From Planctomycetota bacterium (GTDB taxonomy: Bacteria > Planctomycetota > UBA1135 > GCA-002686595): 48,416 bases of DNA. The stretch lies in assembly GCA_028278425.1 (NCBI GenBank), contig JANQEJ010000092.1, forward strand, positions 1-48,416, in the 5' to 3' direction. The position numbers and the translations under genes are program-made. The notes below the pieces were generated by a model. The model had not been told where the DNA came from and did not search any database. It saw nothing but the letters and a program-made list of their open reading frames with translations. Below are positions 3,084 to 45,508 of this stretch, piece by piece. The first letter of the stretch is position 1; the number at the start of each line of letters is the position of its first letter.

Positions 3084-5957
3084 TCAGCGGTGAGCCCGCG
3101 CCTCTTCGAGGCCGGTGCGCAGCAGTTGGAACGCGTCTTCGACGTCGTCGGCGATCGGCTGCTCGAGTCCGGCGGCGAGCTCCTCCGCGCGCGCGAGCGC
3201 CGCCTTGGCTTCGGCCGGTTCCTCGGCGCGGACGTGGATGAGTCCGCGCTGCAAAGCCATCGCCGTCGCCAGCTCGAGGTGGACGGCGGACGTCTTGGCG
3301 AGCTCCGCGAGTGGCTCTTCGAAGGGCCCCAGGATCGCGAGGGCCTCGGGGTAGAGACCGGACCGTCCGAACGAGTCGGAAGCGTCCAGCGCGCCGATCA
3401 CGGAGTACGGCGACGCCATGCCCTCCGCCTCGACGCGATCCGCGACCGCCGCTTCGATCAGCTCGACGCCGCGATCGGTCTCGCCCAGGATCAGGTGCGC
3501 CTTGCCGAGACAATTGCGCACGCGGAAGAACGTGCTCCGTTGCGCCGGATCCCTGGGATCCAACTCCGCCATCAAGGGCTCGAGCAGCGCCTTCGCCTCG
3601 GCCCCCTTGGCCTGGTAGATCGCGACCTCGGCGGTTCGCAGGCGAAGCGTCGTGATCCTGAGGTCTCCGCTCGGGTAGTGCAGCTCCGCCAGCTTGATGG
3701 CTTCCCGGTAGCTGGCCTCGCTCTCCTCGAAGCGATCGTAGATCAAGTGGCACGAGCCCAGGGAGGAGAGCGAGCCGATCACCATCGGGTGGCTCGCGTC
3801 GAGGTTCGCGCGCGCCCACTCGAGCACGGCGCTGGAGAGCTCCTGGACCTCTCCGAACCGGCCGAGCGTCATCAGCGTTCCGGCGAGGTCCATCCGCGCG
3901 TCCCACGTGTGGTACTGATCGGGACCGAAGGCCGCCTCGCAGATCTCCACCTGCTCGCGGCGCAGCGCGAGCGCGCGCTCGAGCTCGCCGGTGGCGGTCA
4001 GCGCCTCGGACAGGTGACCGATCGCCGTCTTCATCCGGTGCGGCTCGTCGGCGTGCGCCGCGCGCAGGAGCGGCCACGCGTCGGAGAGCTCCGCGATCAC
4101 GGCGTCGAAGCGACCCTGGCTGAGCCGCAGGCCGGCGAAGGCCACCTTGGCCTGCAAGGTGCGCGGGTCGGCTCCGCCGAAGACGCGCGCGTGCTTCGCG
4201 AGCGCGTCCTCGAAGACGTTCTCGGCCGCCGCGAGGTCGGGGACGTTGACGAGCGCGGTGCCTAGGTCGAGCAGCAGGCCGAGAACGCGCTCGTCTTCCG
4301 CGCCGTAGCGCGGCTCGCCCTCGGCGAGAAGCTCCTTCACCGCGTCGCGTGACTCCGCCGCGCGTCCCATCTGCCCGAGGAGCGAAGCCCGCAGGCGTCG
4401 CGCGTCGTAGCCGATTGGCTCGCGGAGCATGCCCGCCTTCTCCATGTCGGCGAGGCTCGCCTCGACGCGCTCGAGCGCACGCGTGGGCTCGCCCAACGTG
4501 GAGAGCGACTGCGCGACGAAGAACCCGAGCTGCCCGCGGCCGCGCGGGTGGTCGGGCAGGTGCTCCCGGATGTCGTCGCCGAGCTCGAGCACGACGTCGC
4601 GCAGGAGCACGTCGCGCCCCTGCGCCGACGCCTGCGGCGCGCGGATGACGCCGGCGAGGACCGCCGCGACGCGATCGGACTCCTCGCGCGCGGCTTCGGC
4701 CGCGGCGAGGCGCTCCTCGGCAAGCCGCCCCTGCGCGCGCGCCTCGCGCCACCCGAGCGAAACGCCGACCGCGGTGGCGACGAGGGCGAGCGCGCCGACG
4801 CCCGCGGCGGCCGCGACCGCCGGGTGGCGGCGCACGTACTTCCGCGCGAGATAGATCGAGCTCGGCGGCCGGGCGGTGATCGGCTCGTTGGCGAGGAAGC
4901 GCTCGACGTCGCCGGCGAGCTCCTGAACGGTCGCGTACCGCCGCGCGCGGTCTTTCTCGAGCGCCTTCCGGACGATCGTCTCGAGGTCGCCGGCGAGCGT
5001 CCGGTCGACCTGCCCGAGCGGCGCGGGCTCCTCTTCCGCGATCCGGCGCAGGCATTCGGGGAGCGGACGCCCCTCGAACTCGATCGGCCGGCGGCCGGTG
5101 AGCAGCTCCTGCAGGAGCACGCCGAGCGCGTAAACGTCGGCGCGCGTGTCGATCTCGTCGGAGCGGCCGGCGGCCTGCTCCGGGCTCATGTACTCGAGGG
5201 TGCCGACGATCTGGCCCATCGACGTCAGGAGGCTCGCGGCGCGCAGGTCCTCCCCCGCGGCGCGCGCGACGCCGAAGTCGACGAGGTGAGGCTCCCCGCG
5301 CTCGTCGACGAGCACGTTGCTCGGCTTGAGGTCGCGGTGGACGACGCCCTTCTGGTGCGCGTGCGCGACGCCCGCGCAGACCGCGTTGAAGAGGCGCAGC
5401 CGTTCGCGTCGCGGCGGGCGCTCGGCCTCGACCCAGGCGTCGAGCGGGCGCCCGCGGACGAACTCGAGCACGAGGTACGGATGCGGCGCGGCGCCGAAGT
5501 CCGCGCGGCCCGCGTCGAGGATGCGCGCGATGCGCGGGTGATCGAGGCGCGACAGGAGCTCGACCTCGAGCTCGAAGCGGCGCAGCGCCTCGCCGCCGGC
5601 GAGCCAGGGCTTCAGCACCTTGACCGCCACGTCGCCCCGCGGGTGAGCGCGCTCGCCGAGGAAGACGGTGCTCATGCTCCCCGCGCCGAGCAGACCGCGG
5701 ATCGCGTAGGGACCCACCTTCTCCGGCGGCGGATCGGGCCAGGGGCCGAGCGACGCCTCGAGCGCGCTCCGCAGGCGGTCGGGCTCGACGGTCCAGGCGT
5801 CCAGCGGGTGCTCCTCGCGCTCGGCGCAGCGCAGGAGCTCCTCGCACTCGGCGCGCACGTCCTCGTCGGGCTCGGCGGCGAGAAGGCGCGCACGCTCCGC
5901 GGCCTCGGCGCCGAGCGCGCGCGCGAAGAGCGCCTGCACCGCGTCCGCGCGACTCAC
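3084..5957 (-). CDS. Transmembrane Ser/Thr protein kinase with C-terminal TPR-like region
   Basis: This 957-residue protein has a cytoplasmic Hanks-type kinase domain at about residues 80-350. The glycine loop is degenerate (GLLGAGSMSTVFLG). The other motifs are intact: VAVKVL lysine, HRDLKPSN catalytic loop, DFG and the APE-equivalent SPEQ. One membrane helix follows at about 378-402 (AAAAGVGALALVATAVGVS). About 550 residues of helical, TPR-like repeats come after it and would sit outside the cytoplasm. The GTG start at 5957 was chosen because it overlaps the sigma-factor stop (GTGA), which implies translational coupling. The open frame extends far upstream, but there it only shadows the sigma gene. 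ECF sigma plus kinase-TPR pairs are a recurring planctomycete arrangement, and the kinase probably controls the sigma factor. The substrate and signal are unknown. Confidence 0.93.
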   Translation of the reverse strand: MSRADAVQALFARALGAEAAERARLLAAEPDEDVRAECEELLRCAEREEHPLDAWTVEPDRLRSALEASLGPWPDPPPEKVGPYAIRGLLGAGSMSTVFLGERAHPRGDVAVKVLKPWLAGGEALRRFELEVELLSRLDHPRIARILDAGRADFGAAPHPYLVLEFVRGRPLDAWVEAERPPRRERLRLFNAVCAGVAHAHQKGVVHRDLKPSNVLVDERGEPHLVDFGVARAAGEDLRAASLLTSMGQIVGTLEYMSPEQAAGRSDEIDTRADVYALGVLLQELLTGRRPIEFEGRPLPECLRRIAEEEPAPLGQVDRTLAGDLETIVRKALEKDRARRYATVQELAGDVERFLANEPITARPPSSIYLARKYVRRHPAVAAAAGVGALALVATAVGVSLGWREARAQGRLAEERLAAAEAAREESDRVAAVLAGVIRAPQASAQGRDVLLRDVVLELGDDIREHLPDHPRGRGQLGFFVAQSLSTLGEPTRALERVEASLADMEKAGMLREPIGYDARRLRASLLGQMGRAAESRDAVKELLAEGEPRYGAEDERVLGLLLDLGTALVNVPDLAAAENVFEDALAKHARVFGGADPRTLQAKVAFAGLRLSQGRFDAVIAELSDAWPLLRAAHADEPHRMKTAIGHLSEALTATGELERALALRREQVEICEAAFGPDQYHTWDARMDLAGTLMTLGRFGEVQELSSAVLEWARANLDASHPMVIGSLSSLGSCHLIYDRFEESEASYREAIKLAELHYPSGDLRITTLRLRTAEVAIYQAKGAEAKALLEPLMAELDPRDPAQRSTFFRVRNCLGKAHLILGETDRGVELIEAAVADRVEAEGMASPYSVIGALDASDSFGRSGLYPEALAILGPFEEPLAELAKTSAVHLELATAMALQRGLIHVRAEEPAEAKAALARAEELAAGLEQPIADDVEDAFQLLRTGLEEARAHR

Positions 5958-38145: not shown

Positions 38146-39417
38146 CTAATCGTCGCGCGGCCGGGGACGCAGCTTCTCGAGCGCCTCCGCCTTCACCGGC
38201 TTGCCGCACACCGTCACGCCGCCCTCGATCTCGGTCGTCTCGGCGATCACCACGCGGCCGTTCGGCGCGCTGATCAGGCGGTCGTCGCCCGGTCCGAACG
38301 TCGGGTCGAGCGCGAGCGCCGGCTGCTGGCCACCCGACACGAAACGGTTGCGCCCGACGATCCGCAGCGACTTGCAGGCGCCGATGGCGACCAGCGGCCG
38401 GTCGCCGCAACCCTCGGCGAGCTCGAACACGTTGTCGCGCAGGACCAGGTTGGCGGTGAGGTGCCTCTCGCCGCCGTCCCAGGCGACGAACGCGCCGGTG
38501 CCGTAGGGAGCGCCGCGCGTGAGCTTCTTCAGCGACGCGTCGAAGCCCGCCCGGTACGTGTTGCCCTCGAAGAGGACCGTGCCGTTGTGCCGGCCGGCCA
38601 GCGTGAAGGCCGCGCCGCCCTTGAAGTTGTCGCCACGCGCGATGGCCACGTCCTCGACCTCGCAGTTGCGGACGAGGATGTGGCCGACGCCCGGGGGACC
38701 GTCCTGGCTGCGCGCCGTGAACTGGCAGAAGGTGCGCCCGAGTCGCCTTGCGGCCACGTTCTCGATCGTGACGTTGCCGCGCGGGTTCTGAAGGTAGAAG
38801 GCGTGCTCGTCCTTCAGGTCCTCGATGACCGCGGGCCGGCCGACGCCCCGGTAGGCGAAGTCGCGCAGGCTGTGGCCCCACACGCCCCACTTCGACTTCT
38901 GCCCGGTGTCCATGGCGTGGTCCCACTCGCCCTTGATGTCAACGTTCTCGAAGACGAAGCCCGCGTGGACGCCCTTGCCGCCGAGCTTGTTGAAGATGAC
39001 GGCGCTCCGGTAGCCCGGCTGGAGCTCCAGGTTGCGAAACGTGATGTAGCCGTTGCGGAGGGACTGGTCGACCGAGATCGTGTCGCCCAAGCCGCGGTTC
39101 AGGATGCGCACGTAGCCCATGCCCTCGACGACGATCGGCCAACCCGGCTTGCCGCCGCGCGTGCGCGCGTTGTCCTTGTTCGTGCTCTTGGCGCCGATGG
39201 AGAACCCCGGGTAGTCCCCGAACTGGAGCAGGATCTGGGTCCCGTCGCGGGCGTGCTGGAGCGCCAGCGCGATCGGGTTCTCGCTCTGGACTTCCTTGCC
39301 GTTCGGGAGCCGCACCGACGTCGGCGTGCAGGTGATCGAGCTCGTGTTGGGCGGGACCTCGGCGCCGGGCAGGGCGAGGCTCAAGACCGCGGCGGCGAGG
39401 CTGGCGACGCGCTTCAC
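38146..39417 (-). CDS. Secreted parallel beta-helix protein
   Basis: The 423-residue product starts at a GTG (39417) and has a short signal peptide (KRVASLAAAVLSLALPGAE). The body has the alternating strand pattern of a right-handed beta helix: ALQHARDGTQILLQFGDYPG near the start, then ITFRNLELQPG, VTIENVAARRLG, ILVRNCEVEDVAIARG and LRIVGRNRFVSGG. Charged side chains are common, unlike the glycine-rich helix protein at 6670. It is probably a carbohydrate-binding or carbohydrate-processing envelope protein, but no catalytic set was identified. It heads the long minus-strand run and is divergent from the HEAT-repeat gene. Confidence 0.88.
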   Translation of the reverse strand: MKRVASLAAAVLSLALPGAEVPPNTSSITCTPTSVRLPNGKEVQSENPIALALQHARDGTQILLQFGDYPGFSIGAKSTNKDNARTRGGKPGWPIVVEGMGYVRILNRGLGDTISVDQSLRNGYITFRNLELQPGYRSAVIFNKLGGKGVHAGFVFENVDIKGEWDHAMDTGQKSKWGVWGHSLRDFAYRGVGRPAVIEDLKDEHAFYLQNPRGNVTIENVAARRLGRTFCQFTARSQDGPPGVGHILVRNCEVEDVAIARGDNFKGGAAFTLAGRHNGTVLFEGNTYRAGFDASLKKLTRGAPYGTGAFVAWDGGERHLTANLVLRDNVFELAEGCGDRPLVAIGACKSLRIVGRNRFVSGGQQPALALDPTFGPGDDRLISAPNGRVVIAETTEIEGGVTVCGKPVKAEALEKLRPRPRDD

Positions 39418-39436
39418 GGCTCTACGGTAACGGCTC

Positions 39437-39452: not shown

Positions 39453-39560
39453 ACGATCGCGGGGGTAACGCGGCACCCGGAGCGCTTCGGGGCGGCGGCG
39501 GGGAGTGGCATGACCATTGCCCTTACAAAGCACGTCCCAGACCCCGGAAAGACCCCATCC

Positions 39561-41645
39561 ATGAGCTCTCTCGGCATCCTCCTCCTGCTCCTCGCCCTCC
39601 CCCAGGAATCGGCCGGCGGCGATCGCGAGCGCGATCGCGCCCACTACGCCCGCGTCGAGGAGGAGCTCCTCGAGCGCGACGTCTCCGACCTCGACGCGAG
39701 CCGGCGGGCGGAGAGGGGCCGGATCGTCGCCGAGCTGCGCCGCTACCGCGAAGCGGGCGTCTTCACGGTGAACACCGACTTCCCCGGTCGTCGGGTGCCG
39801 TACTTCGTCGACGACGCGGGACGGCACTGCGCCGTCGCGAACCTGTTGCGCTTCACGGGTGATGGGGAGCTTGTCGCCGCCGTCGCCGGCACGAACAACC
39901 ACGCCTGGGTCGCCGATCTGCGCGGCGTGCCGGAGTTCCACGCTTGGCTCGACCGCGTCGGCCTGACCTTCGAGGAAGCCGCGCGGATCCAGGTCCCGGG
40001 CTTCAACCCGAGCGACCTCGACGACGGGCCCGCCCCGCAGGAGGAGGGCGGCGACGAGCCGCCGGCCACGGGCGGCGGGGCGCCGGCCCCGCCCACGGGA
40101 CGCTCCGCCCCCGGCGCCGGCCCGCTCTCTCCCGGCTCCAGCGCGCCGCCCTCGGCCGCCGCGCCCGCGGGCTCCGGCCCGCGCTACGGCGGCGAGGACT
40201 GGCGCGTCTGGTGGGAGTACAACAAGCTCACCTGGCTCCGCCCGAACGTCCTGCGCGGCGCCGCGTCCGGGGACGGCTTCACCGTGAGCGAGGACAAGCT
40301 GGCCGAGGCGCGGCGCGAGGCCCGCGCGCTCCTGGAAGGCCAGCTCGAGCACGCGAGCGCCGAGGTGCGAGCCGCCGCCGTGGTGGCCTACGCCCGCCTC
40401 ACCGGCCCGGCGGCGGTCCCGCGGGTCCGCGCGCTCTTCACCGACGCCGCGCGTGAGGTGCGCCTCGCCGCGATCCTCGCCCTCGGCGCCACCGCCTCGG
40501 AGGAGGGCGTCCACGCGCTCCTGGAGCTCCTCCTTCAAGAGCAAGAGCTCGCGCCCAACGCGCGGCCGGTGGCCGTCGTCGCGCTGGGGCTCGCGCGCGA
40601 GCGGGGCGTCGGCGCGGGCGTCGACCGCATGCTCCCCGATCTGCTCCGCGCGGAGGCGGACGAGGAGCTCGCGCTGCTCCTGCACCACACCCTGGCGCCC
40701 TCGGCGCACTTCCTCGATCACGAGCGCGAGGACCGCGACGCCGAAGCGCGCGCGCTGGAGGCGCTGCGCTTCGCGGCGGACGACGAGACGCTGTCGCACC
40801 TCCTCGACGAGCTCGGCGGCGACGACCTCCAACACCGGCGCTCGGCCGCGGTCGCCCTCGGCGGCGTCGACGGCGGGTTGCAGCCGCTCAAGACCGCCTT
40901 CGAGCTCGAACGCGAGCCGCTCACCCGCGGGCTCACCCTGCTCTCGATCGGCGAGCACGGCGGCAAGAACGCGCGCCGCTTCCTGCGCAACGTCCTCGCC
41001 GACGGGCCGTCGGGCGCGCGGCCGTGGTGCGCCCTGGCGCTGGGCATCCTCGCGCGGCAGGACGAAGACACGGCCGCGCGGCGCGCGGTGCGCAAGGGCT
41101 TGGAGACCGAGGCAAACCGCGACCACCGCGGGGCCTACCTGCTCGCCGCCGGCATCGGGCGCGACCCCGACGCCTACGAGATGCTCGCCGGCGCGCTCAC
41201 CGGCAAGGATCCGGCCCTGCGCGCCTACGCCGCCCTCGGCCTCGGCCTGACCGGCGACCCGCGCGGGCGCCGCGCGCTCCACGCCGCGCTCACCGAGGAG
41301 TCGTCGCCGACCGCCCGCGCCGCGATGGCCCAGGCGCTCGCGCTCCACGGCGACGACCGCGACGCGGGCGTCCTGCTCGAGGAGCTCCGCGGCGCGAAGA
41401 ACCCGGTCGTGCAGGGGCAGATCGCGGTCGCGCTCGGCTTCCACGGCACGCACGCGGCGGCGAAAGGGCTCGCGGAGGAGCTCGAGGGCTCGAAGCTTTC
41501 CGACGGGTCGCGCGCGGCGGCGACCGAAGCGCTCGGCATCCTGCTCTCGCGGCGCGATCACCTCGCGCTGGGCGAGATTTCGAGCCGAGCGAACTTCACC
41601 CTCTTCCCCTTCTGGATGGTCGAACTGCTACAGCACCCGCTGTAA
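39561..41645 (+). CDS. Secreted HEAT-repeat protein
   Basis: The 694-residue product starts at the ATG at 39561, with GGAAAG 10 bp upstream and a hydrophobic signal (SSLGILLLLLALPQ). Residues about 70-155 form a conserved module, RVPYFVDDAGRHCAVANLL followed by NNHAWVADL and GLTFEEAARIQVPGF, which I recall from exported proteins of several Gram-negative phyla. A Pro/Gly-rich linker follows (about 160-210). HEAT-like helical repeats fill the rest, for example AEVRAAAVVAYARLTGPAAV and REVRLAAILALGATASEEG. It would act as a protein-binding scaffold; the partner is unknown. Its last 50 bp overlap the end of the convergent histidine kinase gene. An in-frame ATG at 39510 is less likely. Confidence 0.9.
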   Translation: MSSLGILLLLLALPQESAGGDRERDRAHYARVEEELLERDVSDLDASRRAERGRIVAELRRYREAGVFTVNTDFPGRRVPYFVDDAGRHCAVANLLRFTGDGELVAAVAGTNNHAWVADLRGVPEFHAWLDRVGLTFEEAARIQVPGFNPSDLDDGPAPQEEGGDEPPATGGGAPAPPTGRSAPGAGPLSPGSSAPPSAAAPAGSGPRYGGEDWRVWWEYNKLTWLRPNVLRGAASGDGFTVSEDKLAEARREARALLEGQLEHASAEVRAAAVVAYARLTGPAAVPRVRALFTDAAREVRLAAILALGATASEEGVHALLELLLQEQELAPNARPVAVVALGLARERGVGAGVDRMLPDLLRAEADEELALLLHHTLAPSAHFLDHEREDRDAEARALEALRFAADDETLSHLLDELGGDDLQHRRSAAVALGGVDGGLQPLKTAFELEREPLTRGLTLLSIGEHGGKNARRFLRNVLADGPSGARPWCALALGILARQDEDTAARRAVRKGLETEANRDHRGAYLLAAGIGRDPDAYEMLAGALTGKDPALRAYAALGLGLTGDPRGRRALHAALTEESSPTARAAMAQALALHGDDRDAGVLLEELRGAKNPVVQGQIAVALGFHGTHAAAKGLAEELEGSKLSDGSRAAATEALGILLSRRDHLALGEISSRANFTLFPFWMVELLQHPL

Positions 41646-42657
41646 GCACCGGATCGCCGGGAACCTCGAACCACACGATCGCGCCGCCGCCCGGCGCGTT
41701 GTGGCCGCCGACCCGGCCGCCGTGTGCCCGGATGACGCGGCGGACGACGAGCAGGCCCAGCCCGGCGGAGTCGGCGCGGCTCCGGCGGAGCTTCAGGGCC
41801 TCGAAGTCGACCTCGCCGCCGTCGCCGGGAAAGCCGGGACCGTCGTCGCGTACCTCGACGCGCACGTTTTCGCCCGCGGCGGTCGCCGCGACGACGACGC
41901 GGTCCTTCGCGTGGTGAAGCGCGTTGCGCAGGAGATTCTCGAGCGCGCGCATCAGCCGGTCGCCGTCGGCGCTCAGGAACGGAAGCTCGCGGCCCACCTC
42001 GCACTCGAGCTGGACGCCGCGGGACGCCGCGAAGGGCTCCAGCGAGCGCGCGGCCTGCCGCACGAGCTCCCCCGGCGGGACCGGCTCGAGCTCGAGGTCG
42101 TCGGCGCTGTCGAGCCGCGCGATGACGAACAGGTCGTCGGCCAGCGCGAGCACGCGATCGGCGTCCATGCGCGCGACGGTGACGAGCTTGCGCAGCTCGC
42201 GGTTCTCGGCGGGCTCCCGCTCGAGCGTCATCTCCGCGCGGTCCAGGCAGGCGATCAACGCGGTCAGCGGCGTGCGCAGGTCGTGCGAAACCTGCGCGAC
42301 CCAGTCGGTGCGCGTTCGATCGCGCTCCGCGAGCCCCTTGACGAGCTCGTCCACACGCTCGCGCATCAGGTTCATCGACTGCGCGAGCACGGCCACCTCG
42401 GTGGATCCGGTGGCGTCGAAGGGCCCCGGCAGGTTCCCGTCCTCGTCGACGGGCTCGGACGCCGCGGCCGCCAACCGCGTGAGCGGCGCGGTAACGAGGC
42501 GCGCCGCGAGGACGGCGATCAGGAGCGCGAGGCCCAGGGCGGGCCAGAACCCGATCACCTCGCTCGCGAGGTAGGAGCCCACCAGGAGCACGGCCAGGAG
42601 AAGCGCCAGCCGGACGCCGAGGCGCCGGTGCCAGCGAAGCCGTGCACGGGCCTCCAT
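41596..42657 (-). CDS. Sensor histidine kinase
   Basis: The 353-residue protein has two membrane helices with almost no periplasmic loop (about 14-29 and 37-53), a HAMP-like linker, and the phosphoacceptor His125 in VAQVSHDLRTPLTALI. The ATPase domain shows the N box ALENLLRNALHHA, the G1 box VEVRDDGPGFP and the G2 box SAGLGLLVVRRVIRAHGG. With no sensor domain it may sense within the membrane or take input from a partner. The ATG at 42657 overlaps the response-regulator stop by 4 bases. The 3' end overlaps the convergent HEAT-repeat gene by 50 bp, and the last 15 or so residues (Arg/Gly-rich) look like an added tail. Confidence 0.94.
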   Translation of the reverse strand: MEARARLRWHRRLGVRLALLLAVLLVGSYLASEVIGFWPALGLALLIAVLAARLVTAPLTRLAAAASEPVDEDGNLPGPFDATGSTEVAVLAQSMNLMRERVDELVKGLAERDRTRTDWVAQVSHDLRTPLTALIACLDRAEMTLEREPAENRELRKLVTVARMDADRVLALADDLFVIARLDSADDLELEPVPPGELVRQAARSLEPFAASRGVQLECEVGRELPFLSADGDRLMRALENLLRNALHHAKDRVVVAATAAGENVRVEVRDDGPGFPGDGGEVDFEALKLRRSRADSAGLGLLVVRRVIRAHGGRVGGHNAPGGGAIVWFEVPGDPVLTAGAVAVRPSRRGRG

Positions 42658-43349
42658 CAGGGGTTTTCGCTCAGGCGATACCCGACGCCCCACACCGTCT
42701 CGATGTAGCGCGGGTCGCTCGCGTCGTCCTCGACCATGGCGCGCAGGCGGCGGACGTGGGAGTCGACCGTGCGGCGCTCGCCGTCGTACGTCGAGCCCCA
42801 GACCCGGTCGAGCAACTGGTCGCGCGTCCACGCGCGGCCCGGGTGGCGGAGGAAGAAGAGCAGGAGGTCGAGCTCGCGCGGCGTCATCTCGAACGTCTCG
42901 TCCCCCTTGCCCGCGGTGCGCGACTCCGGGTCGGCCCACAGCTCCCCGATCCGGACCGGGCCCGGTCCGGCGGAGCGGCCGGCGCGCCGCAGCAGGGTGC
43001 GGACGCGTGCGAGGAGCTCCGGCATGTGGAACGGCTTGACGACGTAGTCGTCGGCGCCGACGTCGAGCCCGCGCACGCGCTGGTCGGGCGCATCGCGCGC
43101 GGTCAGGATCAGGATCGGCAGCCCGCGGCCCTGGGCGCGCAGCGCCCTGCAGAGGTCGAGGCCGTCGCCGTCGGGCAGGCCGAGGTCGAGCAGCATCAGG
43201 TCGTGCTCGCGCTGGAGCGCGAAGCGCGCGCTCTCCAGCGAAACGCTGACCTCGACGCCGTAACCGGAGGCGCGCAGGGCGTCGAGGAGCTCCTTGCGGA
43301 TGCGCGAGTCGTCCTCGACGACCAGGATCTGTGGCTCGGTCTTGGGCAT
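42657..43349 (-). CDS. OmpR/PhoB-family response regulator
   Basis: The 230-residue protein has a receiver domain with acidic residues Asp13 and Asp14, phosphoacceptor Asp55 (LMLLDLGLPDGDG), Thr83 and Lys105 (VVKPF). A winged-helix DNA-binding domain follows, with MTPRELDLLLFFLRHPG, TVDSHVRRLRAMVEDD and YIETVWGVGYRL. It is translationally coupled to the histidine kinase, forming a complete two-component system. The divergent neighbour at 43706 is a metal permease, so that gene is a plausible target. The direct repeat GGCAGAGATTC at 43471 and 43515 is a candidate site, but this is only positional. Confidence 0.96.
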   Translation of the reverse strand: MPKTEPQILVVEDDSRIRKELLDALRASGYGVEVSVSLESARFALQREHDLMLLDLGLPDGDGLDLCRALRAQGRGLPILILTARDAPDQRVRGLDVGADDYVVKPFHMPELLARVRTLLRRAGRSAGPGPVRIGELWADPESRTAGKGDETFEMTPRELDLLLFFLRHPGRAWTRDQLLDRVWGSTYDGERRTVDSHVRRLRAMVEDDASDPRYIETVWGVGYRLSENP

Positions 43350-43470
43350 GGGGCCGCCACGCGGATTCTAGCCCGGCCCGGAAGGGCCCCGCCGGAGCCG
43401 CGGGCGCGGAATTGCGACCCGCAACATCTCCGACACAGGACGACAACATCCGTCGCCGAGGATCTCCGCG

Positions 43471-43525
43471 GGCAGAGATTCCTCCTCTCTCCCTCAGGGC
43501 GGCTCGATTCACAAGGCAGAGATTC
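43471..43525. repeat. Pair of 11-bp direct repeats in the permease leader
   Basis: GGCAGAGATTC occurs at 43471-43481 and again at 43515-43525, a 44-bp spacing that is four helical turns at 11 bp. It lies between the divergent response-regulator and permease genes and could be a paired binding site for that regulator. Confidence 0.4.
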
Positions 43526-43646
43526 GGGCCGCCCGCTTTCCAGCTCAATCCCCCCCTCGTCGGCAGGGCGGCCGGTTCGACGGGCATCGATGCCGGCCGC
43601 GGAGCCCGCGTCCTTCACCCCTTATGGATGCGGGCTCCCTTTTTTT
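43497..43646 (+). ncRNA. Candidate structured leader RNA upstream of metal permease
   Basis: The 356-bp space between the response regulator and the permease holds three consecutive plus-strand stems. Stem 1 pairs 43497-43506 with 43525-43534 (10 bp, one G-U). Stem 2 pairs 43568-43575 with 43593-43600 (8 bp). Stem 3 is the intrinsic terminator at 43601-43646. No plus-strand gene lies upstream, so the terminator must end a short leader or a free small RNA. The terminator ends 59 bp before the permease ATG. The structure does not match a riboswitch class that I can recognise. An alternative pairing of loop ACCCC (43617-43621) with GGGGT (43647-43651) is possible. Confidence 0.5.
43601..43646 (+). 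terminator. Intrinsic terminator in permease leader
   Basis: GGAGCCCGCGTCC (43601-43613) pairs with GGATGCGGGCTCC (43626-43638) in a 13-bp stem with one G-U pair and a 12-nt loop. Seven T residues follow at 43640-43646. The T-run is on the plus strand only, which sets the direction toward the permease gene. Confidence 0.85.
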
Positions 43647-43705
43647 GGGGTTTGAAGGGCGACCGCTCCCAGGGTGGGTCGAACGGATCTAGGATCCTCC
43701 GCCCC

Positions 43706-45508
43706 ATGAGCCTCCCGCTGCTCTTCAGCATCCTGGCGCTCTTCGTCGGCCCACTGGTTTACCGCGGGGCGCGCGCGCGGCGCGCCGCCGCCGCGGTCGA
43801 CGCCTTCGCGCTCGTCGGCGTCGGGGGGCTCGTCCTGGTGCACGTTCTGCCGCAGAGCTTCTCGCTCGCCGGCTGGGCGGTCATTCCGGTGACGTTGATC
43901 GGTCTCTTCGGGCCGGGGTTGCTGTGCGGGACGCGGCTCTTCTCCGGCCGGGAGTCGCGGTTGATCGCCATGCCGCTCGCGCTGCTCGCGATCGCGCTGC
44001 ACGCGATCCTCGACGGGGTGGCGCTCGCGCCCGAGACGGAATCGGCGGAGCACGGAGCGCGCGAGCTCGCGCTCGCGGTCGTGCTTCACCGCCTGCCGGT
44101 CGGCCTTGGCGTCTGGTGGCTCGTCCGGCCGCTGTACGGGCTGCGCGCGGCGGCGTCGCTCCTGGGCGGCATCGCCGTCTTCAGCGTCGTCGGGTTCCAC
44201 TTCGGCGAGGCGCTCGTCGCCGGCACGCCGGAGGAGTGGATCGCGGTCGTGCAGGCGTTGCTAGCGGGCTCGCTGCTCCACGTGATCCTCCGCCACCCGC
44301 CGACCGCGACCGGCGAGGAGCCGGCGAAGCGCTGGCACGTCGCGTCCGCGCTCGGCGGCGCGGCCGCGCTGCTCGTCGTCGTCGGGATGGGAAGCCTGCA
44401 CCTGCACGAGGGAGAAGCGGCGAGCGGAGATGGGACCGGCTCGACGTTCCTCGCGCTCGCGCTCGAGAGCGCGCCGGCGCTGCTCTTCGCCTACGTGGCG
44501 GTGGGGTTCGCGCACGCGCTCCTGCTCGACCTGTACAAGCTCCTGAAGAGCGGTTCATCGCTGTCGCAAGCGCTGCGCGGCACGCTGGTCGGGCTGCCGG
44601 TGCCGGTGTGCTCGTGCGGCGTGATCCCGCTCTACCGCAGCCTGGTCGTCGGCAGCGTGCCGGCGGCGGCGGCGATGGCGTTCCTCGTCGCGACGCCCGA
44701 GCTCGAGATCGCGGCGGTCGTGCTCTCGCTCGAGCTGCTCGGCGTGAAGGTCACGGTCGCGCGCCTCGCCGCGGCGCTCGTCCTCGCGCTCCTCGTCGGG
44801 TGGCTCGTCGGAAGCCGCGCCCCGCTGCGCACGGAGACCGTCGCCGCGCCGCCCCACGGCGAGCGACCGCCGCTCGCGCGGCGCCTCGCCGACGGCATGC
44901 GCTTCGGCTTCGGCGACATGGTCGACAACACGGGCCCGTGGATCCTGGTCGGCCTCGCAATGGCGGCCGTGGCGGGACCGCTGCTCTCCGCCGACCAGTT
45001 CGCGCGGCTGCCCGCGGCCGCGGACGTGCCGCTCTTCGCGCTGATCGGGATGCCGATCTACGTCTGCGCGTCCGGCTCGACGCCGTTCGTCGCGGTGCTC
45101 CTCGCCAAGGGCGTCTCGCCCGGCGCGGCCATCGCGTTCCTGCTCACCGGCCCCGCGACGAACATCACCACCTTCGGGATGCTCTCGCGCATGCACGGGC
45201 GGCGAACGGCCCTGCTCTTCGCGGGGTTGACGGTGTTCTTCGCGATCGGCCTCGGCTACGCGGTCAATCTGGCGCTTCCCGCGGTGACCGCCGCCGAGCT
45301 GCCGGCGTTGCACGAGCACGAAGCGACGCTATTCCAGCAGGTGTGCCTCGGCCTGCTCGCCGCGCTCTACCTGGCGTCGATGTTCCGACTGGGTGTCCGC
45401 GGGTTCGTGGGTCAGGTGATCGCGCCGCACTCCCACGAGGGCGAAGAGGGACACTGCGACCACGACGCCGAGCCGGGGCACTGCGACCACGCCCACGAGC
45501 TGGCGTGA
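43706..45508 (+). CDS. Fused ZIP-like/DUF318 metal permease with His-rich tail
   Basis: The 600-residue membrane protein joins two transporter-like halves. Residues 1-190 have about six helices with ZIP-family hints: His99 in HAILDG and His128 in VVLHRLPVG, where ZIP proteins have HxxxDG and HEIP. Residues about 255-565 are a DUF318/ArsP-type permease (PF03773) with the signature PVPVCSCGVIPLYRS (Cys302, Cys304), a second half starting MRFGFGDMVDNTGPWILVG, and CASGSTPFVAVLLAKG then GPATNITTFGML. DUF318 proteins include arsenical and Cu/Zn efflux permeases. The tail has HSHEGEEGHCDH and a second GHCDH, a likely metal-binding patch. The ATG at 43706 was chosen because it starts the first helix. 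Its stop is 1 bp from the next convergent stop. Confidence 0.9.
   Translation: MSLPLLFSILALFVGPLVYRGARARRAAAAVDAFALVGVGGLVLVHVLPQSFSLAGWAVIPVTLIGLFGPGLLCGTRLFSGRESRLIAMPLALLAIALHAILDGVALAPETESAEHGARELALAVVLHRLPVGLGVWWLVRPLYGLRAAASLLGGIAVFSVVGFHFGEALVAGTPEEWIAVVQALLAGSLLHVILRHPPTATGEEPAKRWHVASALGGAAALLVVVGMGSLHLHEGEAASGDGTGSTFLALALESAPALLFAYVAVGFAHALLLDLYKLLKSGSSLSQALRGTLVGLPVPVCSCGVIPLYRSLVVGSVPAAAAMAFLVATPELEIAAVVLSLELLGVKVTVARLAAALVLALLVGWLVGSRAPLRTETVAAPPHGERPPLARRLADGMRFGFGDMVDNTGPWILVGLAMAAVAGPLLSADQFARLPAAADVPLFALIGMPIYVCASGSTPFVAVLLAKGVSPGAAIAFLLTGPATNITTFGMLSRMHGRRTALLFAGLTVFFAIGLGYAVNLALPAVTAAELPALHEHEATLFQQVCLGLLAALYLASMFRLGVRGFVGQVIAPHSHEGEEGHCDHDAEPGHCDHAHELA

Follow-up and report, generated by a model that had tools for sequence, protein, structure and literature searches.

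An intrinsic terminator that stands directly in front of a gene and on the same strand raises the question of which transcript it ends. In the 48,416-nucleotide stretch of DNA analyzed here (the window), such a terminator with further hairpins ahead of it precedes a predicted metal permease. An earlier note offered two explanations, a metal- or ligand-sensing attenuator or riboswitch in the permease leader, or a free small RNA. Our analysis does not support the attenuator or riboswitch and keeps the free small RNA, as a predicted RNA, as the best reading.

Structure and setting of the array

The terminator occupies positions 43601-43646 of the plus strand. Its arms (43601-43613 and 43626-43638) form 13 pairs, one of them G-U, with a stem energy of -27.5 kcal/mol, and enclose a 12-nt loop, TTCACCCCTTAT, at 43614-43625; C43639 follows the stem and seven T follow at 43640-43646. 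The textbook terminator described earlier is thus confirmed in its stem, T-run and direction. It was the only perfect stem of at least 8 pairs with at least five T behind it when both strands of the window were scanned, and a hairpin scan with a loop limit of 8 passes over it. Upstream there are two further stems, as the earlier note had reported: hairpin 1 at 43497-43534 and hairpin 2 at 43568-43600, the latter adjoining the terminator stem. A run of seven C between these hairpins (43549-43555) is unpaired in the centroid fold of 43490-43649 and paired in some longer folds. A fourth, weaker stem lies 5' of hairpin 1 at 43469-43493. Pairing between ACCCC of the terminator loop and GGGGT had also been proposed. 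Both sequences are present, but GGGGT lies at 43647-43651, past the T-run, and so could not compete with the terminator while the polymerase sits there.

The permease gene (43706-45508, plus strand) starts 59 nt after the T-run, the distance given in the note. It encodes 600 amino acids with a profile match to ArsP_1 (PF03773) at residues 246-521. Scores against the NCBIfam models for SO_0444 Cu/Zn efflux (178.8) and SaoE (136.8) are below the cut-offs of 300 and 325. A ZIP domain was not reported in the permease at E 0.001, and some homologs carry ZIP in precomputed labels. The best named relative is a planctomycete protein with 68% identity; homologs at 71-73% exist. The permease frame is open 5' of the ATG across the whole gap and the terminator (43331-43705) with no Pfam match, which is likely an effect of GC content.

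On the minus strand, domain matches identify a response regulator with Response_reg and Trans_reg_C domains (42657-43349) and a histidine kinase (41596-42657). The nearest plus-strand gene upstream encodes a HEAT-repeat protein (39510-41645; the start may be 39561), and it overlaps the kinase gene tail to tail by 50 bp (41596-41645). The claim that no plus-strand gene precedes the terminator therefore holds for 1955 nt, the distance back to the end of the HEAT-repeat gene at 41645, with the minus-strand kinase and regulator pair in between.

Comparison with chance and with other terminators of the genome

Each stem was compared with 500 dinucleotide shuffles. No shuffle was as good as hairpin 1 or the terminator stem, three were as good as hairpin 2, and 44 were as good as the stem at 43469-43493. 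Hairpins 1 and 2 and the terminator fold independently of each other and are more stable than their shuffles, and the fold of 43490-43649 reaches z = -5.8 relative to shuffles of that stretch. Good folding is general in the intergenic DNA of this genome, however: among 1270 160-nt windows taken from 143 gaps, the best plus-strand window of this gap ranks 43rd and the best minus-strand one 37th. The region is not unusually structured for its genome. Since intergenic DNA folds well here overall, the rare feature is the T-run behind a perfect stem and not the stems.

We searched for terminators in 1,875,115 bases of the 7.83 Mb genome (121 pieces picked by contig number and convenience), with genes called by a simple custom codon-usage script. 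A fixed rule (T-run of at least 5, stem of at least 7, score of at least 14) found 10 in these 1.875 Mb, indicating that strong intrinsic terminators are scarce in this genome. The first 1.23 Mb held seven at this score, where five third-order Markov sequences as long as this stretch held 2, 2, 2, 2 and 0, and five at a score of at least 20, where the Markov sequences held none. The nearest upstream neighbor is a same-strand gene for nine of the ten, at 16-141 nt for seven of them and at 399 and 415 nt for two, the terminator of the window being the one exception. Such signals therefore mark real transcript ends in this genome. The two distant terminators (L109, 125-152, minus strand, and L246, 970-991, plus strand) may end unannotated RNAs; an Rfam search of the L109 terminator at the gathering cut-off shows nothing.

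Predicted start of the permease transcript

A TAGGAT hexamer at 43690-43695, beginning at -16 from the ATG, is the predicted -10 box of the permease promoter. According to PMC3160421, leaderless genes of bacteria are marked by TANNNT about 12 bp upstream of the start, and the middle positions are uninformative in high-GC groups; two other papers report that a leaderless TANNNT box was tested in Deinococcus (PMC12340547) and that one planctomycete has a bias in nucleotides that may reflect leaderless mRNA (PMC5397173). The genome studied here shows a comparable pattern. Before 603 first-in-unit genes, TANNNT begins at -12 in 36 cases, at -13 in 25, at -14 and -15 in 20 each and at -16 in 11, over a background of 2.6 per position, and 11 further first-in-unit genes have it at -18. 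A small peak is also found before 398 inner genes, and no -35 element is visible in 74 TANNNT sites of the genome. This genome-wide peak without a visible -35 element suggests leaderless-type expression in a likely planctomycete family.

The permease box belongs to the tail of the peak, the permease itself being counted among the 11 genes at -16. With TANNNT ahead of its start, in excess over background, the permease looks like a leaderless-type gene. It resembles the leaderless genes of the cited papers (PMC3160421, PMC12340547), whose box precedes the start by about 12 nt in high-GC genomes, and differs from them in that its own box lies 16 nt before the ATG, so that a 5' UTR of a few nucleotides is likely. 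A possible -10 box of the response-regulator gene, TAGAAT at 43365-43370 on the minus strand, begins at -21 from its ATG, outside the main TANNNT peak.

Similar boxes recur in orthologs. Among those examined, the nearest two, at 57% and 58% identity, have TAGAAT at -14 and TAAGAT at -15, respectively, and TANNNT begins at -18 to -12 in 13 of 30 permease loci (L023-L052, window included), a count for which start codons were picked by hand from the in-frame starts and ten genome_contigs loci were omitted. Eight bins farther upstream hold 0-3, and 500 shuffles gave a mean of 0.9 and a maximum of 4. With TAGGAT behind the terminator and boxes recurrent in orthologs, the predicted permease promoter lies behind the terminator, and the permease mRNA would start at about 43700 and exclude it. 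The same order of terminator and leaderless-type start is found at two ortholog loci, L033 and L034, where a gene on the same strand is closed by a hairpin 12-19 nt ahead of the permease, with the -10 box placed after the hairpin or merged with it. At L034, an FG-GAP-like gene on the same strand just upstream of the permease ends in a perfect 18-bp hairpin (minus strand, about 3208-3260), whose TTCTTT tail merges into TAAAAT, the predicted -10 box of that permease.

Searches for homologs and known RNA families

When the leader (43400-43720) was compared by blastn with the sequence upstream of the permease at 39 other loci, matches were at most 19 nt long. Weaker plus-strand terminators were found at three of the 39 (at -236, -287 and -621) by a scan that required four T and passed over the hairpins of L033 and L034, which a laxer search found. 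A blastn search of 101 genomes, in which at most about seven candidates were scored per genome, gave only short matches outside the genome of the window (best E 8e-5 over 39 nt) and two short matches within it (E 6e-4). A covariance model built from a single sequence (the same stretch entered twice) found itself and three matches at E 3.6-8.3 in its own genome. In relatives, where 73 candidates were scored per genome, 20 of 39 gave matches with E up to 1 (best 0.018) in a chance-like spread. Seven relatives were rescanned; none of the five alignments shown has a terminator stem with a T-run, and two have short pyrimidine tails. Plasmid and phage searches with the array gave no match, and a tRNA search found none. 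With no homolog in its own genome or in the relatives searched, the array offers no covariation. Near 19 other response-regulator orthologs, three of them (L068, L069 and L072) with short flanks, no strong divergent terminator was found; one lies 1290 nt away in L076.

No Rfam family reached its gathering cut-off with the array. The best match below it was 6C RNA (RF01066; 32.8 bits, E 0.011, gathering 47) and the second was Scr3920 (RF02828; 24.3 bits, E 0.011, gathering 88). Like the array, 6C RNA has two abutting hairpins of which the second is a terminator, with some C in the loop. We rejected this identity because the score falls short of the cut-off, the first loop (the GACGGGCATCGATG region) is without a C-run and the second has only four C. 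6C RNA is known from Actinobacteria (PMC4046766, PMC9569102). In a search for 6C RNA across 151 genomes of the lineage, none exceeded the cut-off and 15 had matches with E up to 1, including the genome of the window at another place; few candidates were passed on in this search, the window's own site was unlisted, and the control search gave a match in only 1 of 14 genomes, likewise under the cut-off. The Scr3920 match covers hairpin 1 and its 5' flank, and differs in several broken pairs in the 5' half in addition to its low score.

A separate small RNA as the favored reading

We tentatively favor the reading that the terminator and hairpins form the 3' end of a separate plus-strand RNA specific to this lineage, likely a free small RNA with a length of about 150-300 nt, and are not part of the permease leader; we rate this prediction a little short of an even chance. 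It is preferred because two hairpins abut the terminator and the T-run is intact. The predicted RNA would have its 5' end in the interval that separates the response-regulator gene from hairpin 1, would be driven by a promoter that we do not recognize, and would end at 43640-43646. Plus-strand TANNNT is absent between 39424 and 43689, the nearest upstream occurrence being at 39423, before the HEAT-repeat gene. This counts little against the RNA, since 351 of the 603 first-in-unit genes are also without TANNNT in -60 to -5 (252 have one). Trans-encoded bacterial small RNAs are likewise intergenic and structured, lack an evident reading frame and end in a stem with a T-run, and the array has the intrinsic terminator at its 3' end that is typical of them. 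It differs from them in having no recognized promoter and no homolog found.

The terminator may also shield the permease promoter from transcription of this RNA or from read-through that originates farther upstream. More speculatively, the ACCCC loop and the seven-C run might bind targets by pairing with G-rich sequence in their ribosome-binding or start regions, as the C-rich loops of 6C RNA reportedly do.

The junction between the kinase and regulator pair and the permease looks private to this genome among the relatives compared. The response regulator has a divergent neighbor in G007 and G008, a gene for a protease-like secreted protein that is presumably a metalloprotease, judging from its HEVGHY motif. 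The permease of G007 is divergent from a homolog (52%) of the window gene at 38146-39417, and that of G024 is followed by an ABC-transporter pair, as in the window. Three protease homologs (52-62%) are found elsewhere in the genome of the window. Close relatives of the kinase and regulator pair at L066 and L067 are divergent from a secreted metalloprotease-like gene, which is a possible target. A more detailed version of the favored reading, possible but on the unlikely side, is that a lineage-specific small RNA with C-rich single-stranded patches was born at a fresh rearrangement junction between the kinase and regulator pair and the permease, its terminator doubling as an insulator of the leaderless permease promoter.

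Alternative readings

One unlikely alternative is that the terminator ends long read-through from the HEAT-repeat gene, which would run antisense through the kinase and regulator genes and be stopped before the permease promoter in an excludon-like or insulating arrangement. The tail-to-tail overlap of the HEAT-repeat and kinase genes, where no intrinsic terminator was found, is consistent with this, as is the position of the nearest TANNNT upstream of 43690 before the HEAT-repeat gene. There is also precedent in overlapping 3' UTRs of convergent genes with no terminator between them, as described in PMC7154746. However, the transcript would need to evade Rho over about 2 kb without translation, this reading gives no explanation for the two abutting hairpins, and the HEAT-repeat gene stands apart from the kinase and regulator pair in the relatives examined.

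Another possibility, which we regard as improbable, is that the array is a permease leader transcribed from an upstream promoter, in which a metal or another ligand decides between termination and read-through. The terminator is only 59 nt from a predicted metal permease and has hairpins ahead of it, and a second, upstream permease promoter may exist. In addition, as long as the 3' arm has yet to be transcribed, the 5' arm of the terminator is predicted to pair with 43458-43473 (probability 0.90-0.96), forming a long-range helix of 43458-43473 with 43604-43616, as an antiterminator would. This helix is ordinary compared with shuffles, of which 343 of 500 matched its duplex energy and 396 of 500 its folding gain. 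Once the 3' arm is present, the pair probability of the terminator is 0.99999. The terminated fold is more stable than the alternative helix by about 23 kcal/mol. NiCo and other metal riboswitches resemble the array in having an efflux or transport gene downstream and a terminator before it; the array differs from them in having no Rfam match, in being unconserved and in having a terminator predicted to lie outside the permease mRNA. The leaderless-type box behind the terminator, recurrent in orthologs, also argues against an attenuator, as do the absence of a similar leader at any of the 39 other permease loci and the scores of all Rfam families below cut-off. The earlier note had named two observations that would speak against its reading: the stems are indeed unconserved at the orthologous permeases compared, and the transcript start falls downstream of the terminator by prediction.

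It is also rather doubtful that the terminator is a functionless scar of a plus-strand gene lost from in front of the permease on arrival of the kinase and regulator pair: this would agree with the private junction, with the other divergent partners of the G007 and G008 response regulators and the G007 permease, and with the same-strand gene and terminator-like hairpin right before the permease in L033 and L034, but neither the stem nor the T-run shows decay, Pfam finds no coding remnant in two plus-strand frames of the gap, and the protease genes of G007, G008 and G020 are without a strong terminator behind them within the stretches examined.

Implications

A terminator directly before a gene need not be an attenuator, as a leaderless promoter can sit between the terminator and the start codon. 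Searches for riboswitches in such genomes should therefore begin by locating the -10 box. The small RNA predicted here, if real, would join a small number of candidates in a little-studied lineage that is likely planctomycete.
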